Source of the DNA: Dehalococcoidia bacterium
Lineage (GTDB): Bacteria > Chloroflexota > Dehalococcoidia > Lucifugimonadales > SHYT01
Reading direction: 5' to 3'
DNA: 64,000 nucleotides
Assembly: GCA_009692665.1 (NCBI GenBank)
Contig: SHYT01000001.1
Span: 1-64,000 of the forward strand
Shown here: positions 30,096-39,366 of the stretch, piece after piece
Position numbering within the stretch: the first letter of the stretch is position 1
How the letters are laid out: each line of letters starts with the position of its first letter
Notes under the pieces: generated by a model
Told to the model about the DNA's origin: nothing
Databases searched by the model: none
What the model saw: the letters and a program-made list of their open reading frames with translations, nothing else
Made by a program: the position numbers and the translations under genes

Positions 30096-30453
30096 GTGGT
30101 GGCCTCCTTTCGTGTCTGCCTTTCCCCACTTCCACATTGGGGGGCGGCGAGGAACGCTGGGGGAAGACGCCCTCGCCGCCGCAGGAGAGGCTGCACCGAG
30201 CTGCGTACGCCCGGAGGAACCTCGCCATGAGATGTACTGTATTGATAGCACATACATTCTGTCAACGGGCAGGTGTCCAGTTGGGGTTTTGGGAGGTACG
30301 GTTCGTCAGTAAACGAATATGGGGTGGAGCTAACTACCGTTTGCGCCAATCACAGGGAGGCGGTCGGTTGGCGGTGTGCCGCGGAGTATGGTAGATTCAT
30401 ACGTAGATAGCTTTTCCCTGACGCAGTGCCACGGGGATGTGCAGGAGGCATGT
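30096..30453. other. intergenic region upstream of the XRE regulator
   Basis: A short inverted repeat GTATG-N7-CATAC lies at 30386-30402, a possible operator for the regulator downstream. Otherwise there is nothing clear. Confidence 0.4.
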
Positions 30454-30939
30454 ATGGCAGTGAAACAGGCAAAGCCGGCACGGACTGCCGTTGGCCGCAC
30501 GATCCAGCGGAAGCGGGAGATGCTGGGTTGGAGCCGGCCGGAGCTTGCCCGCCATTCAGGTGTCTCCACATCCATGGTGCAGCGGATGGAAGAGGGCGCG
30601 CGCAGCCCCTCACGCGAGACGGCTGGGAAGTTGAGCCGCGCGCTGGGAATGAACGCCGTGGATCTGCTGCGGCAGGCGGGCCACTATCCGGAGCTCACCC
30701 AGTCGCCTTTGGATGCTGAGGAGCAGACGCTGGTGGATCTGTTCCGGCAACTGTCGCCAGCCTTCCGTCGAGCAATGCTTGCAGGAGCGCGGGCGTACCT
30801 GCAGCAGGCGGTCCGAGCGTCACGGCCACCAGCGGCAGGGAAGCCAGCCACTCAGCCCCGGCAGCCCCGGCAGCCCGTGCAGGCCCGTGCCGAGCGGGCG
30901 CGCGCTGCCAACGGGCCGCGGCGGCCGCGGGGACGGTAA
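30454..30939 (+). CDS. XRE-family helix-turn-helix regulator, 161 aa
   Basis: From the ATG at 30454 (CAGGAGG upstream) the protein has a Cro/CI-type domain: 'VGRTIQRKREMLGWSRPELA', then 'SGVSTSMVQRMEEGARSPSR' for helices 2 to 4. A linker leads to a helical segment 'EQTLVDLFRQLSPAFRRAML', which may dimerise, and the tail is Pro/Arg/Ala-rich and disordered. It binds DNA as a dimer. There is no phage gene nearby, so autoregulation or control of the adjacent accessory genes is the simplest guess. Confidence 0.85.
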   Translation: MAVKQAKPARTAVGRTIQRKREMLGWSRPELARHSGVSTSMVQRMEEGARSPSRETAGKLSRALGMNAVDLLRQAGHYPELTQSPLDAEEQTLVDLFRQLSPAFRRAMLAGARAYLQQAVRASRPPAAGKPATQPRQPRQPVQARAERARAANGPRRPRGR

Positions 30940-31094
30940 GCTCCAGGAGGAGCCGGACAGGCTGGGGCGTGGGATGGGATTTTTTCATTCTGCCGTTTTC
31001 CTCACACGGGCACCTCAAAGAACGAAGGAGGATTTGTGGTGGTGGGAAAGCCGGTGGGGACAGCGGGCAGAGCCTACACTCTCACACTATTGCC

Positions 31095-32147
31095 ATGACT
31101 GCTATTGCCTTCCAAACGCCACCTGGTCTTTCGCTGCTGCAGCGTCACGCACGCGCTCTGTCGCTCATTGCGCAGTACGGCTCCAACCACCTGGCGTACC
31201 TGCACAAACGGCCTGGCATGACCGTCTTTTTCGACAGTCAGCAGCACGCCTGCCTGGCATGGCGTCGTTCCCGCCGCTTCGCCGTCGTCCTCGGCGACCC
31301 CATTGGTCCGCGAGACGCGCTGCCGCGCCTTGTCCAGGAATTCTCGCAGTACTGCAGGGCCAACAGACTGCGCGACACGTATTGCGGCCTTTCCAGCCAG
31401 GCTGCGGTGCTCATCCGCGCTATGGGCTACCGCCTCCTGTACGTCGGCGATGAAGCGGTTATGGAGTTCCCCATGGGGGACCTCAGCGGCGGCGACTGGC
31501 GCGAGTGCCGTGTTGCCCGGCACCGTGCGTCCCGCCAGGGCTATGAGATTCGCGTCTTCCGTCCAGGGCTGCGCGATGTCGGCCTGCTCACGCAGCTCCA
31601 CCGCGTCTCCGACGACTGGCTCGCCCGGCGCAAGCTGCCGGAGCTCGGCTTCGCCATGAGTACGTCACATGACATTGCCGACCCCAACACGCTGCTGGCC
31701 GCCGCCTACGGCCCCTCTGGCTCCATTAAGGCGTTCACCACCTGGAATCCCAATGTTGTGCGGCACGGCTGGTGTCTGGACCTCATGCGGTACCGCCACG
31801 GCACTGTAGCCGGGCTCATGGACGCTGTCATTGCCCAGTCCCTGCTATGGATGGAGGAGAACGGCTACCACGCGGCCAGCCTGGGCGGCACGCCCCTCTC
31901 CAACGAGTCCGGCAACCGCCAGGGCGTCTTACGGCTTGCTATGGACACGGCCTTTAAGATCGTCACTCGCCCGTACGGCTTTAAGAGCCTGCACCACTTC
32001 AAACAGAAGTTCAATCCGCACTGGCAGCCGCTCTATGTAGCCGCACCACACGGCGTGTCCATGGTTGCCGCCACCTACGCCATCGCCAAAGCCGTTGCGC
32101 CAACGGCCAGCGCGCTCCGCGTGGCCTGGATGGCGCTGCGCCGCTAG
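31095..32147 (+). CDS. MprF-like lysyl/alanyl-phosphatidylglycerol synthase domain protein (DUF2156)
   Basis: This 350-residue soluble protein matches the C-terminal aminoacyl-transferase half of MprF. The tandem GNAT fold shows 'RRFAVVLGDPIGPRDALPRL', 'ELGFAMSTSHDIADPNTLLA', 'HGWCLDLMRYRHG' and 'HAASLGGTPLSNESGNR'. Full MprF adds Lys or Ala from aminoacyl-tRNA to phosphatidylglycerol and flips it with an N-terminal membrane domain. That flippase is missing here. It may modify another acceptor or only the inner leaflet. The ATG at 31095 lacks a strong binding site; it follows the XRE gene by 155 bases. Confidence 0.83.
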   Translation: MTAIAFQTPPGLSLLQRHARALSLIAQYGSNHLAYLHKRPGMTVFFDSQQHACLAWRRSRRFAVVLGDPIGPRDALPRLVQEFSQYCRANRLRDTYCGLSSQAAVLIRAMGYRLLYVGDEAVMEFPMGDLSGGDWRECRVARHRASRQGYEIRVFRPGLRDVGLLTQLHRVSDDWLARRKLPELGFAMSTSHDIADPNTLLAAAYGPSGSIKAFTTWNPNVVRHGWCLDLMRYRHGTVAGLMDAVIAQSLLWMEENGYHAASLGGTPLSNESGNRQGVLRLAMDTAFKIVTRPYGFKSLHHFKQKFNPHWQPLYVAAPHGVSMVAATYAIAKAVAPTASALRVAWMALRR

Positions 32148-32671: not shown

Positions 32672-35600
32672 ATGGCTGTATCTGTGGCGCAGTGGCGCCG
32701 TATTTCTAGAATCCTAACGGCTGCCGCTGTTGTCTCCCTATTGGTGTCTTGGCTTGCTCTCCCAGCCAGCCCGGTGCTGGCCGCTGGGACCTTCAACCTT
32801 TCTCCCACCTCTGGAATGCCTGGTAGCACAGTAACCGTTACAGGCTCCGGCTTTGTAGCAATTGGTACGACAGCTGTGGTCACGTTTGACGGAACGCAAG
32901 TGGCTACGCCCCCAATTTCGGGTACGGGTGATGTGTCCTTTTCCTTTAACGTGCCTGCTGCGGTGCCCGGGGGTCCGCACACGGTTACGGTTACTGCTGG
33001 AGCGGAGGCGCCCGCCCAGCAGTTCCAGGTCACTAGCGTCGCCGCGCTGTCCGCCAACTCCGGCCAGCAAGGCCAGCTTATTAATATTTCCGGTCAAGGC
33101 TTTACCGCCTCGCAAGCTATTCAAATTAAATTCAACGGCGCTCTCGTTGCCGCCACTACTGCCAATGCGCAAGGCACTGTTTCCGCAGGATTTGTTGTTC
33201 CACCCGTACCGGCAGGCTTCTATCCAGTCATTGTTGGAAGCGCCCCTCCCCTTACATTTATGTTGAACTCGGGCCTCAACATTAGCCCATCCAGCGGCCC
33301 CGTGGGCGCCAGCGTTGGCATGACCGGCACGGGATTTAGCGCCGGCACCTCTATCACTATCACCTTCGATAGCGTGACGGTGAAGACCGTGCAGACCGAC
33401 GCCAACGGGAGCTTCAACACCACTTTTGTGGTGCCTGCTAGTGCCGGAGGTCCCCATGCCATTGCCATTTCTGGTTCCTCCGTCGGTACTAGCCAGGCCA
33501 CGTTTACTGTGAATCCCTTGATCGTGCTCGATAAGCCGAACGCCGCGCCTGGGAGCTCAGTAGGCATAACGGGCAGCGGCTTCGCTGCTAATGAAACGAA
33601 CATCAGCATCACGTTTGATAACCAGACTGTAGCCTCAGGCATTACCGCGGACTCGCAGGGCCGCTGGTCCGGTACTTTTACAGTGCCCGCCGGTGTTGCA
33701 GGTTCCCACTCAGTCCGCGCCAGCGGTGCGCAGAGCACCGGCGCCACCGTGCCACAGGTGACCATTAGCCTCTCTGCCGGCCTGCGATTCGACCGCGCTT
33801 CCGGCACTCCGGGCTCAAAAGTCCGCATCAGTGGTCAAGGCTTTCCAGCAGCCGCGAGTGGCATCTCTCTTGTCATTGGTGAGACCACAGTCGCGGGCAA
33901 CATCTCGTCCGACAGCTCCGGCCAATGGACGCTGGATGTCACTATCCCCACTGCGCCAAGCGGGCCAATCGCCGTCCGCGCGATAGTTCCCGGCAGTACG
34001 CCAATAGATACTGTGTTCACCATCACGCCTGGCTTTACCATCTCCCAGAGCAACGGTCAGCCGGGGACGCAGCTCACCATTGCAGGCAGCGGCTTCAGTG
34101 CGAACCAGAGCGGTATTACCTTGAATCTCGCCAGCGCAAACGCCGCCGTCAGCGCAAGCGCCCAGGGTTCCTGGATCGCCACGCTCACGGTGCCTCCCGC
34201 GCCCAAAGGCGGCTACTCCGTCAAAGTTGGCGGTTCCGCTACGGCGCCCGAGCAACCCTTCAACGTCATTCCAGGCGTGAGCGCCGGTAGCAACCGGGGC
34301 GCGCCCGGCACATCGCTCGTCGTTGTAGGCGGCGGGTTCTCCGCCAACGAGCGTGGTATCTCTGTCATCTTCGATAGGACGCCAGTCGCCACTGGCTTGA
34401 GCGCTAACGCAGAAGGCTCCTTCACTGCTACTTTCCCCATCCCACCTGTGGCGGCAGGCAACCACTTTATTTCTGCGAGCGGGACAGTATCATCCGGCGC
34501 CGGCGTTCAGGGGGACAACTTTAGCATCGGCGCGGGCATTACCGCCAACCCGTCCAAAGCAGGGCCGGGCGTCACTCTCTCCATCCAAGGCGGTGGCTTT
34601 GATGCCAATGAGAAGAACATCAACATTACCTATGACGGCACGCCTGTCGTCTCCGGCATCACCGCTGACCCCATCGGCGCGTTTGCAGCTGCATTCGTGC
34701 TGCCCCCATCAACGGGCGGCTCGCACAGCATCAAGGCCTCCGGATCGGTCACTACCGCCGCCGCTGCTGCTGAGTTGGCCTATCAAGTCACACCCACAAT
34801 CAGCTTCAATCGCGCAACCAACGCTCCAGGCTCGCCTATCACTGTGAGAGGCTCCGGGTATCGCGCCAACGAGACGGGCATCATCCTCACTTTCGATGGC
34901 GCCCCCGTAGGCCAGCCCGCCACCGCTGACTCGCAAGGCTCCTTCACCTTAACATTCCAGGCGCCCGCTGCTCCTGCAGGCACGCATCGGCTCGCCGCCG
35001 CCGGCGCAACCGCCATTGGCGACACCCGCGGTGAGCAAACCTTCAGCGTCGCGCCTGCTGTGCTCCTGAGCGCCCCCAGCGGTAGCGTGGGGATGAATGT
35101 GGACATCATCGGCAGCGGCTTTGCGGCTGCCTCACCCATCACCGTGACGTACGATAGCGGTGCCGCTCGCGCCTCTGCTACCACAGACGCAACCGGCAGC
35201 TTCCGCATCGCCATGCCTATCCCCAAGTCCCGTCATGGCGAGCACCCCATCGCCGCGCAGGATGCGGCCGGCAACAGCACGCAGGTAGTGTTCACGGTGG
35301 AAAGCACTGCGCCTTCCGCGCCTAATCTCCTCTCGCCATCAACTGGCAAGAGCGGCGGCTTGTTCGGTGGCTTCCGGCCCGCGCTCCGCTGGGCCGCATC
35401 CGATGATCCCAGTGGCGCCACCTATCAATTGCAAATCGCTGAGACCGCGGACTTCGCCAGCCCGGTGCTTACCAAGAACGATCTCACTGCCGCCTCCTAC
35501 ACGCTGAACGAGCAGGAGGCGCTCCCGCGTGGTAAGTATTACTGGCGCGTCAAGCCTACTGACCTGGCGTCCAACGAGGGCCAATGGTCCAGCGCCTTCG

Positions 35601-36571
35601 TAGTGCAGTCCGGCATCATTCCGTTCTGGTCGCTTCCTCTCATCCTCGCGCTGCTGCTGGCGGGCGCTGCGGGTGCGTACTACCAGTACGTCTACAAACC
35701 GCGCAAGGCGCGTGCAGAGCCCGTCTACGTGCCGGTCACCGGCCAGATCAGGGATATGCCCAACCCGGAAGCTTCTGGCCTTGCGCTCTCCTCTGGTCGA
35801 GGCCAAACCCTGGCCACGCCACTACCCAGGCTGGCGCTTCCCGCACCTGCACGCAGAGGCCGTGGCGGCGTGGCCCCGGAAGACATGGCGCGGTTTCAAA
35901 TGGTCATGGACTTCGTGCGCTCCATACCGCTGCTGGAACTCACCGCTGACCTGGCGTGGCTTGATGAGATCATCATCTCCACAGACGGCGCGGACCCGCA
36001 TGAGAACGCGCTCTCAGGCACGGCATCCGTCCGCTACCAGCCGGCTTGGGCACAGCATCCCACCTATGCCGATCTCCAGCGTTTGCTCCAGGGACAGCCC
36101 TTCCAGCAGCGTCTGGACGAATACATGACTGCTGTAGACGCTTGCGCCACGGAGGCGTTGGCTCTCATTCAGGACGCCCACAGCCACCTCATGACTGCCA
36201 TATCGCCGGATGCTCCAACGGACCACCGCTGGAAGCTGTCCGTCGCTGTTGCGCAGGACTCCATCGCCTGGTTCCGTGGCACCTTCCTGAAAGCGCCCTC
36301 GCAGCGCGACTACCTCATCAAATCACAAGCTGCCGCCAATGAAGCGTTCAAAATCGCTACCCTGGCCGGCGCCGATGAGGCTCCGTTCCGCGATCTGCTC
36401 ATCGAGGACATCGCAGAGGCGGACGCCATTTCCTATCGGAATACCCACGTGCTGGTGCGCACTACCTACCGCGCCAACGAGCGTGCCCGCCTCCTGGCAG
36501 CCAAGATCGTCCACGTGGAAGTCCTCCGAGAGCAGCTCCAGCGGACCATCGCGCAGCTAGACCAGCGCTAA
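32672..36571 (+). CDS. large surface protein with ten IPT/TIG repeats and a cytoplasmic domain
   Basis: This 1299-residue protein has a signal peptide (to about residue 38). Ten Ig-like IPT/TIG modules of about 80 residues follow, each opening with a form of 'SG-PG-xVxITGSGF' and carrying 'ITVTFDG' and 'ADxxGSFxxTFxVP'. A fibronectin-like module ('PSAPNLLSPSTGKSGG' to 'GKYYWRVKPTDLASNEGQW') precedes a membrane helix near 985-1007 ('LPLILALLLAGAAGAYYQYV'). About 290 cytoplasmic residues follow, ending in helices ('LLAAKIVHVEVLREQLQRTI'). I recognise no family for this last part. The repeats fit adhesion or an S-layer; an external array joined to an internal domain could signal. It ends at a strong hairpin. 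Confidence 0.88.
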   Translation: MAVSVAQWRRISRILTAAAVVSLLVSWLALPASPVLAAGTFNLSPTSGMPGSTVTVTGSGFVAIGTTAVVTFDGTQVATPPISGTGDVSFSFNVPAAVPGGPHTVTVTAGAEAPAQQFQVTSVAALSANSGQQGQLINISGQGFTASQAIQIKFNGALVAATTANAQGTVSAGFVVPPVPAGFYPVIVGSAPPLTFMLNSGLNISPSSGPVGASVGMTGTGFSAGTSITITFDSVTVKTVQTDANGSFNTTFVVPASAGGPHAIAISGSSVGTSQATFTVNPLIVLDKPNAAPGSSVGITGSGFAANETNISITFDNQTVASGITADSQGRWSGTFTVPAGVAGSHSVRASGAQSTGATVPQVTISLSAGLRFDRASGTPGSKVRISGQGFPAAASGISLVIGETTVAGNISSDSSGQWTLDVTIPTAPSGPIAVRAIVPGSTPIDTVFTITPGFTISQSNGQPGTQLTIAGSGFSANQSGITLNLASANAAVSASAQGSWIATLTVPPAPKGGYSVKVGGSATAPEQPFNVIPGVSAGSNRGAPGTSLVVVGGGFSANERGISVIFDRTPVATGLSANAEGSFTATFPIPPVAAGNHFISASGTVSSGAGVQGDNFSIGAGITANPSKAGPGVTLSIQGGGFDANEKNINITYDGTPVVSGITADPIGAFAAAFVLPPSTGGSHSIKASGSVTTAAAAAELAYQVTPTISFNRATNAPGSPITVRGSGYRANETGIILTFDGAPVGQPATADSQGSFTLTFQAPAAPAGTHRLAAAGATAIGDTRGEQTFSVAPAVLLSAPSGSVGMNVDIIGSGFAAASPITVTYDSGAARASATTDATGSFRIAMPIPKSRHGEHPIAAQDAAGNSTQVVFTVESTAPSAPNLLSPSTGKSGGLFGGFRPALRWAASDDPSGATYQLQIAETADFASPVLTKNDLTAASYTLNEQEALPRGKYYWRVKPTDLASNEGQWSSAFVVQSGIIPFWSLPLILALLLAGAAGAYYQYVYKPRKARAEPVYVPVTGQIRDMPNPEASGLALSSGRGQTLATPLPRLALPAPARRGRGGVAPEDMARFQMVMDFVRSIPLLELTADLAWLDEIIISTDGADPHENALSGTASVRYQPAWAQHPTYADLQRLLQGQPFQQRLDEYMTAVDACATEALALIQDAHSHLMTAISPDAPTDHRWKLSVAVAQDSIAWFRGTFLKAPSQRDYLIKSQAAANEAFKIATLAGADEAPFRDLLIEDIAEADAISYRNTHVLVRTTYRANERARLLAAKIVHVEVLREQLQRTIAQLDQR

Positions 36572-37237: not shown

Positions 37238-39171
<1,934 letters not shown>

Positions 39172-39366
39172 GTGTCCCTCTTTCTCCTCGCGGCCGCAAA
39201 TGGCCGTGTTTCCGTACGCTAATTTGGATGTTGGCCTCCAACGGCCTCCCACACGGAAAGCTATTGGACATACCGCCACTAAAAAGCACTGCTGTGAGGT
39301 CTGGGGCCTCGCGACCCATTGGTTACTCCGCAGACACTACATGATAGCAGTCGGAGGGCGAAACTG

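Follow-up and report, generated by a model that had tools for sequence, protein, structure and literature searches.

A ten-repeat TIG-array membrane protein of Dehalococcoidia with a conserved C-terminal domain of predicted cytoplasmic location

A gene in the window, the 64,000-nucleotide stretch of DNA analyzed here, encodes a 1299-aa protein in which a signal peptide, ten TIG units, an Ig/FN3-like domain, a transmembrane (TM) helix, a linker, and a C-terminal domain follow one another in that order. Judged from sequence and profile comparisons, the C-terminal domain appears to be undescribed in the libraries searched. The protein represents an uncommon, long-tailed version of a TIG-stalk format that is common in, and specific to, the class Dehalococcoidia, and it is tentatively interpreted as a membrane-spanning envelope strut that would tie a surface coat to a cytoplasmic partner.

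Layout of the protein

The features of the gene, with the basis of each assignment, are as follows.

32672..36571, + strand: whole gene, TIG-array type I membrane protein, 1299 aa
32672..32788, + strand: signal peptide, aa ~1-39 (hydropathy; cleavage site by inspection)
32789..35305, + strand: ten TIG (IPT) units of 78-88 aa each, aa 40-878 (Pfam; own-repeat HMM)
35303..35615, + strand: juxtamembrane FN3/Ig-like domain, aa ~878-981 (weak PF25788 match, A6 alignment, identity, PDB 3afl/3a0o)
35615..35686, + strand: single transmembrane helix, aa ~982-1005 (hydropathy)
35687..35827, + strand: basic stop-transfer (KPRKAR) followed by a linker rich in proline, aa ~1006-1052 (modelled at low confidence, disordered)
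35828..35842, + strand: linker motif RLALP, aa 1053-1057 (alignment of 13 homologues)
35867..36568, + strand: cytoplasmic domain (predicted location), aa ~1066-1299 (alignment, AlphaFold2 models)

The ATG is preceded by GAGGTG, a plausible ribosome-binding site. Hydropathy indicates an export signal, an N-terminal hydrophobic segment at aa 14-36; the predicted signal peptide has its hydrophobic core at 14-32 and an AxA-type end, VLAAG. The Pfam TIG family (PF01833) matches the protein with E 2.5e-37 in eight separately scored stretches, seven units passing the Pfam cut-off singly and an eighth together with its neighbours. When the repeats of the protein itself are used to build an HMM, a partly circular procedure in that the units scored are those from which it was built, ten back-to-back units are resolved (aa 40-122 ... 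796-878). Besides the signal peptide, hydrophobicity peaks at aa 982-1000 (KD 2.16), with KPRKAR after it; a borderline segment, 659-677 (KD 1.72), falls within a TIG unit. Pfam, the own-repeat HMM, and hydropathy thus confirm the ten TIG units and one transmembrane segment recognized in the initial annotation, and its count of about 290 residues after the helix is borne out by the ~295 found here. Elsewhere in the genome containing the window, the sole other TIG match is in a protein of 357 aa whose N-terminus is lipoprotein-like (L028:715-1788, contig C19; TIG E 8e-10).

Application of the positive-inside rule to the sequence predicts that the array lies outside and the tail inside the cell. 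The opposite placement, with the C-terminal region serving outside the cell as an ordinary anchoring or wall-binding domain, is highly improbable: positive residues occur soon past the TM helix in the homologues, there is no second TM helix, a known anchoring domain was rejected because no such family matches, and nothing was found in favor of this placement.

Between the array and the TM helix lies a conserved Ig/FN3-like domain that was absent from the initial description. At aa ~878-981 there is a weak match to PF25788, the Ig/FN3-type domain of the Rha78A enzyme family, with E 0.023, below the cut-off, and the family profile of the domain matches the oligo-alginate lyase structures 3afl and 3a0o in the PDB with E 8e-4. 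No other part of the family is as conserved as this juxtamembrane domain, which has a mean pairwise identity of 49% compared with 39% for the cytoplasmic domain and a mean identity of 38% for the last TIG unit across the long-tailed family. Profile A6, which covers the juxtamembrane domain and the TM helix, matches the window protein with E 8.5e-66, a value that includes a self-match since the window sequence is itself among the rows of the profile; the other 12 rows of the alignment have 33-47% identity. A 2790-aa open reading frame in another genome (G293:C130) contains several tandem domains of the juxtamembrane type, so that the domain can also be found in array form.

The C-terminal domain and the long-tailed family

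The tail begins with a linker bearing the motif RxALP, in which R, A, and L are invariant in 13/13 homologues and P is present in 12/13 (R1053, A1055, L1056, and P1057 are thus each kept in at least 12 of the 13). The domain of ~235 residues that follows is predicted by AlphaFold2 to consist of helices, a three-stranded beta insert, and two long C-terminal helices. Invariant residues in the domain are W1096, Y1122, P1124, W1126, H1129, P1130, W1200, G1203, P1209, Y1214, G1233, F1239, H1259, and R1263; beyond this set W1187, F1201, R1212, D1213, and Y1266, among others, are kept in at least 12 of 13. For the window tail the model has a mean pLDDT of 83, the greater part of the domain exceeding 90, and a pTM of 0.74, and a member 36% identical to it yields the same order of elements with a pLDDT of 89 and a pTM of 0.83; both predictions take the 13-row alignment as input and, sharing rows, are not fully independent. 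The tail had been described initially as long amphipathic helices. Its helical character is retained, and the remainder of that description gives way to a disordered linker of ~50 residues and a compact domain with the three-stranded beta insert.

Searches of Pfam, NCBIfam, PHROGs, and PADLOC with the C-terminal domain return no match beyond chance, a single PHROG match of the window tail at E 0.046 being judged a chance one, and PDB sequences give no match. PDB profile matches at E 0.7-2.4 were likewise attributed to chance. Foldseek comparison of two models with the PDB yields best E values of 1.0 and 0.93 at probability <=0.11, none of them significant, and the best match among viral models (E 0.03 at TM 0.16) was also set aside as chance. 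No recognizable cytoplasmic output domain, either signaling or catalytic, is found in Pfam, NCBIfam, PHROG, or PADLOC, and a defence system was rejected on the empty PADLOC result. The profile searches and structure prediction that the initial annotation proposed for the tail therefore give a confident fold that matches no family in these libraries and no PDB fold; with the positive residues after the TM helix, these results support its view of an unrecognized internal domain.

Protein and profile searches of order, class, and phylum samples recover 13 loci in 12 genomes, all of the class Dehalococcoidia and all with an identical order of parts. This recurrence refutes the reading of the gene as an artefact, an assembly fusion or a chance open reading frame, whose probability is virtually negligible even for a window that comes from a fragmented 31-contig assembly. 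The own-repeat HMM scores 6-13 TIG units in the 12 long-tailed homologues, and since order is kept while TIG number varies, the stalk differs in length within the family and the membrane-proximal and internal parts stay constant. The long-tailed protein occurs in 7/393 genomes of the class sample and in 3/400 genomes of the phylum sample, all three being Dehalococcoidia, and within the samples searched the C-terminal domain is seen solely in TIG-array proteins. Restriction of the domain to this lineage, which the initial annotation proposed to survey, is thus upheld for the order, class, and phylum samples. The window tail alone has no match among the genome contigs; the family was recovered through the 13-member profile.

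Distribution within the class is patchy. The window's family is represented by two further genomes, and neither yields the long-tailed protein; it was also not found in a genome whose completeness is rated at 100% and which shares its genus with a carrier. Such rarity and patchiness would be odd for a structural necessity. The tree of long-tailed proteins has two well-supported clades; one of them consists, apart from a single genome of the window's order, of other families outside that order, and the window protein pairs with a genome of another order (support 94/91). Horizontal transfer and old paralogy with loss both fit this tree. One genome (G209) has two long-tailed copies, L023 and L026, which are sisters in the tree. 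Phages, plasmids, and scanned viral contigs contain no relatives of the domain, and an origin from any of these was ruled out on that ground. A literature search for TIG in Dehalococcoid or Chloroflex bacteria found no reports.

An all-against-all comparison of neighbourhoods at the 13 loci finds nothing common to more than 3/13, and the genes that recur to that extent encode generic enzymes. A conserved operon or partner was accordingly rejected, and the co-occurrence with conserved neighbours that the initial annotation proposed to survey was not found. In the window, a gene for a protein with a phosphatidylglycerol lysyltransferase C-terminal domain (30969-32147, + strand; PF09924, E 4e-57) lies ~520 bases upstream and is preceded by an HTH gene (30376-30939); it might modify lipid charge in a cell without a wall, and it is not conserved beside the homologues. 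Downstream, groEL and groES (37238-39279, - strand) are convergent with the TIG gene. The homologue in L041 likewise has a groES-groEL pair, at a distance of ~3.5 kb; this is probably a coincidence, and the arrangement is common to these two loci only. A VUT/YhhQ-like transporter gene adjoins the gene solely in two related genomes (L024:4048-4755 and L025:8690-9403).

These properties bear on the reading of the protein as a fibrillar adhesin with a passive anchor, in which the array would bind particles or cells and the tail would only keep the protein from being drawn out of a wall-less membrane. Surface proteins commonly contain TIG arrays, the array length varies here, and in a cell that has no wall, and hence no sortase-type wall anchoring, a heavy tail could resist pulling. 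However, no distinct adhesive tip domain is present, the first TIG unit starting at aa 40 right behind the signal peptide, and a passive plug needs no set of >20 invariant residues across 13 divergent members. An adhesin of this kind is clearly unlikely.

Short-tailed relatives and the absence of peptidoglycan

Profile A6 matches 132/393 genomes of the class, 99 of them at E <=1e-20 and across 32 families; the 99 strong genomes include long-tailed carriers. The common, short-tailed format consists of a signal peptide, a TIG array, the same juxtamembrane domain, one TM helix, and a stub tail. Examples are mostly 500-700 aa long and end a few to ~20 residues past the TM helix, and they are also present in single-contig genomes of 1.5-1.7 Mb from one family of the class. 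The initial statement that most TIG-array proteins end outside the cell needs amendment for this class, in which the common form crosses the membrane and then ends in its stub. The window protein departs from the stub-tail feature, and its 12 homologues share the long tail; it is the frequency of the A6 format (99/393 strong) against that of the long tail (7/393) that marks the latter as the rare variant.

The short-tailed proteins also bear on the possibility of a contact or ligand sensor, in which the array or the juxtamembrane domain would bind a ligand, a change in shape or clustering would cross the TM helix, and the cytoplasmic domain would bind or modify a partner. The juxtamembrane domain is better conserved than either the cytoplasmic domain or the last TIG unit, which is needless for a spacer; H1129, H1259, and R1263 are invariant polar residues of the cytoplasmic domain and R1212 and D1213 nearly so; and a patchy distribution suits an accessory function. 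On the other hand, the juxtamembrane domain is equally typical of stub-tailed proteins, which are unable to signal through a cytoplasmic domain, no known signaling, output, or catalytic domain is present, and the gene stands alone with no conserved neighbour. A sensor is therefore considered somewhat unlikely.

In the genome containing the window (assembly 91% complete) there is no match to FtsW/RodA/SpoVE, and FtsW/RodA is not found in the 11 other carriers either (0/12). The search works in this class, 168/393 genomes being positive. Among the strong A6 genomes 1/99 has FtsW/RodA compared with ~42 expected (Fisher p 1e-27, a value that ignores descent). The lone genome with both, G464, could reflect contamination or be a real intermediate. 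Peptidoglycan is inferred to have been lost a single time in Dehalococcoidia, ahead of the radiation of Dehalococcoidales and of the marine lineages (PMC10284905). Treatment of the exclusion as many independent events was rejected, since peptidoglycan loss was probably one event (PMC10284905) and the association largely follows this ancestral loss. What can safely be said is that the A6 format hardly occurs outside the peptidoglycan-free part of the class. S-layers have been reported in members of the class that lack peptidoglycan (PMC10284905), and cultured SAR202 have an S-layer-like coat (PMC10444878).

A possible envelope strut and its comparison with known systems

The reading of the protein as a membrane-spanning strut between surface coat and cytoplasmic partner is favored here, with a probability that falls short of even. 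The ten-TIG array would be a stalk reaching outward from the cytoplasmic membrane of a peptidoglycan-free cell, where it would contact or hold the surface coat, presumably an S-layer. The conserved juxtamembrane domain would seat the stalk at the membrane, and the flexible, RxALP-bearing linker would tether the compact cytoplasmic domain, which may dock on an internal protein, perhaps via the RxALP motif, thereby linking coat and cytoplasm. The relatives with stub tails, which have no such internal link, would serve simply as coat anchors.

Counted for the strut are the constant order of parts at 13 loci with varying TIG number, the existence of a comparable single-TM stalk in Sulfolobus SlaB (PMC6911244), the occurrence of the domain only in TIG-array proteins, the same confident topology in two models, the almost complete mutual exclusion of the A6 format and FtsW/RodA, the S-layer or S-layer-like coat in the class, and the lack of a signaling domain and of a conserved signaling neighbour. 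Counted against it are the rarity and patchiness of the cytoplasmic domain, the descent of the FtsW association largely from one ancestral loss, and the invariant H, R, Y, and W residues, which could equally be explained as a ligand-binding or active site. Between a possible scaffold or anchor and a possible contact sensor, the scaffold is somewhat better supported. A more far-reaching proposal is that the tail is a new fold, in the sense of new relative to the PDB, and would form the inner half of a system dedicated to coupling the coat of peptidoglycan-free bacteria to the cytoplasm, mechanically or informationally; this proposal, under which the system would take the role that wall-spanning complexes have in other bacteria, is doubtful.

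Little is known of how peptidoglycan-free bacteria hold their coat, keep their shape, and transfer information across the envelope. Dehalococcoidia of marine and subsurface habitats, SAR202 included, are abundant and mostly uncultured. A family that is predicted to cross the envelope and has a defined internal domain offers a concrete handle on a wall-less envelope. The domain of ~235 residues is expressible and has a confident model, and its invariant residues and the linker motif are available for mutation or for use as bait. The short-tailed family, given its near confinement to FtsW-less genomes, provides candidate surface-coat anchors of the class.

Among known systems, the window protein resembles other IPT/TIG (PF01833) array proteins in its ten tandem units. 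It differs from generic TIG modules in that the array is fused, via the Ig/FN3-like domain and the TM helix, to a conserved cytoplasmic domain that belongs to no family. With the short-tailed TIG-Ig/FN3-TM proteins of Dehalococcoidia it shares the signal peptide, the array, the juxtamembrane domain, and the TM helix, and it adds ~295 residues predicted to lie inside the cell. Sulfolobus SlaB is a single-TM stalk of beta domains that serves as membrane anchor and distance ruler for the S-layer (PMC6911244). It resembles the window protein in having a Sec signal, tandem beta-sandwich domains, one TM helix, a role as coat spacer, and a wall-less cell (PMC6911244), a likeness of the stalks that is taken as functional analogy only, with no homology claimed. 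SlaB, however, is archaeal and has a coiled-coil stalk, and the passages on it describe no internal domain (PMC6911244); in the window protein a coiled coil before the TM helix is absent, and the Ig/FN3-like domain occupies this position. Fibrillar adhesins (PMC9210967) share with the window protein a repeat stalk on a surface protein; compared with them, the window protein has no separate tip domain, and its anchor consists of the TM helix together with the folded domain predicted to lie in the cytoplasm.
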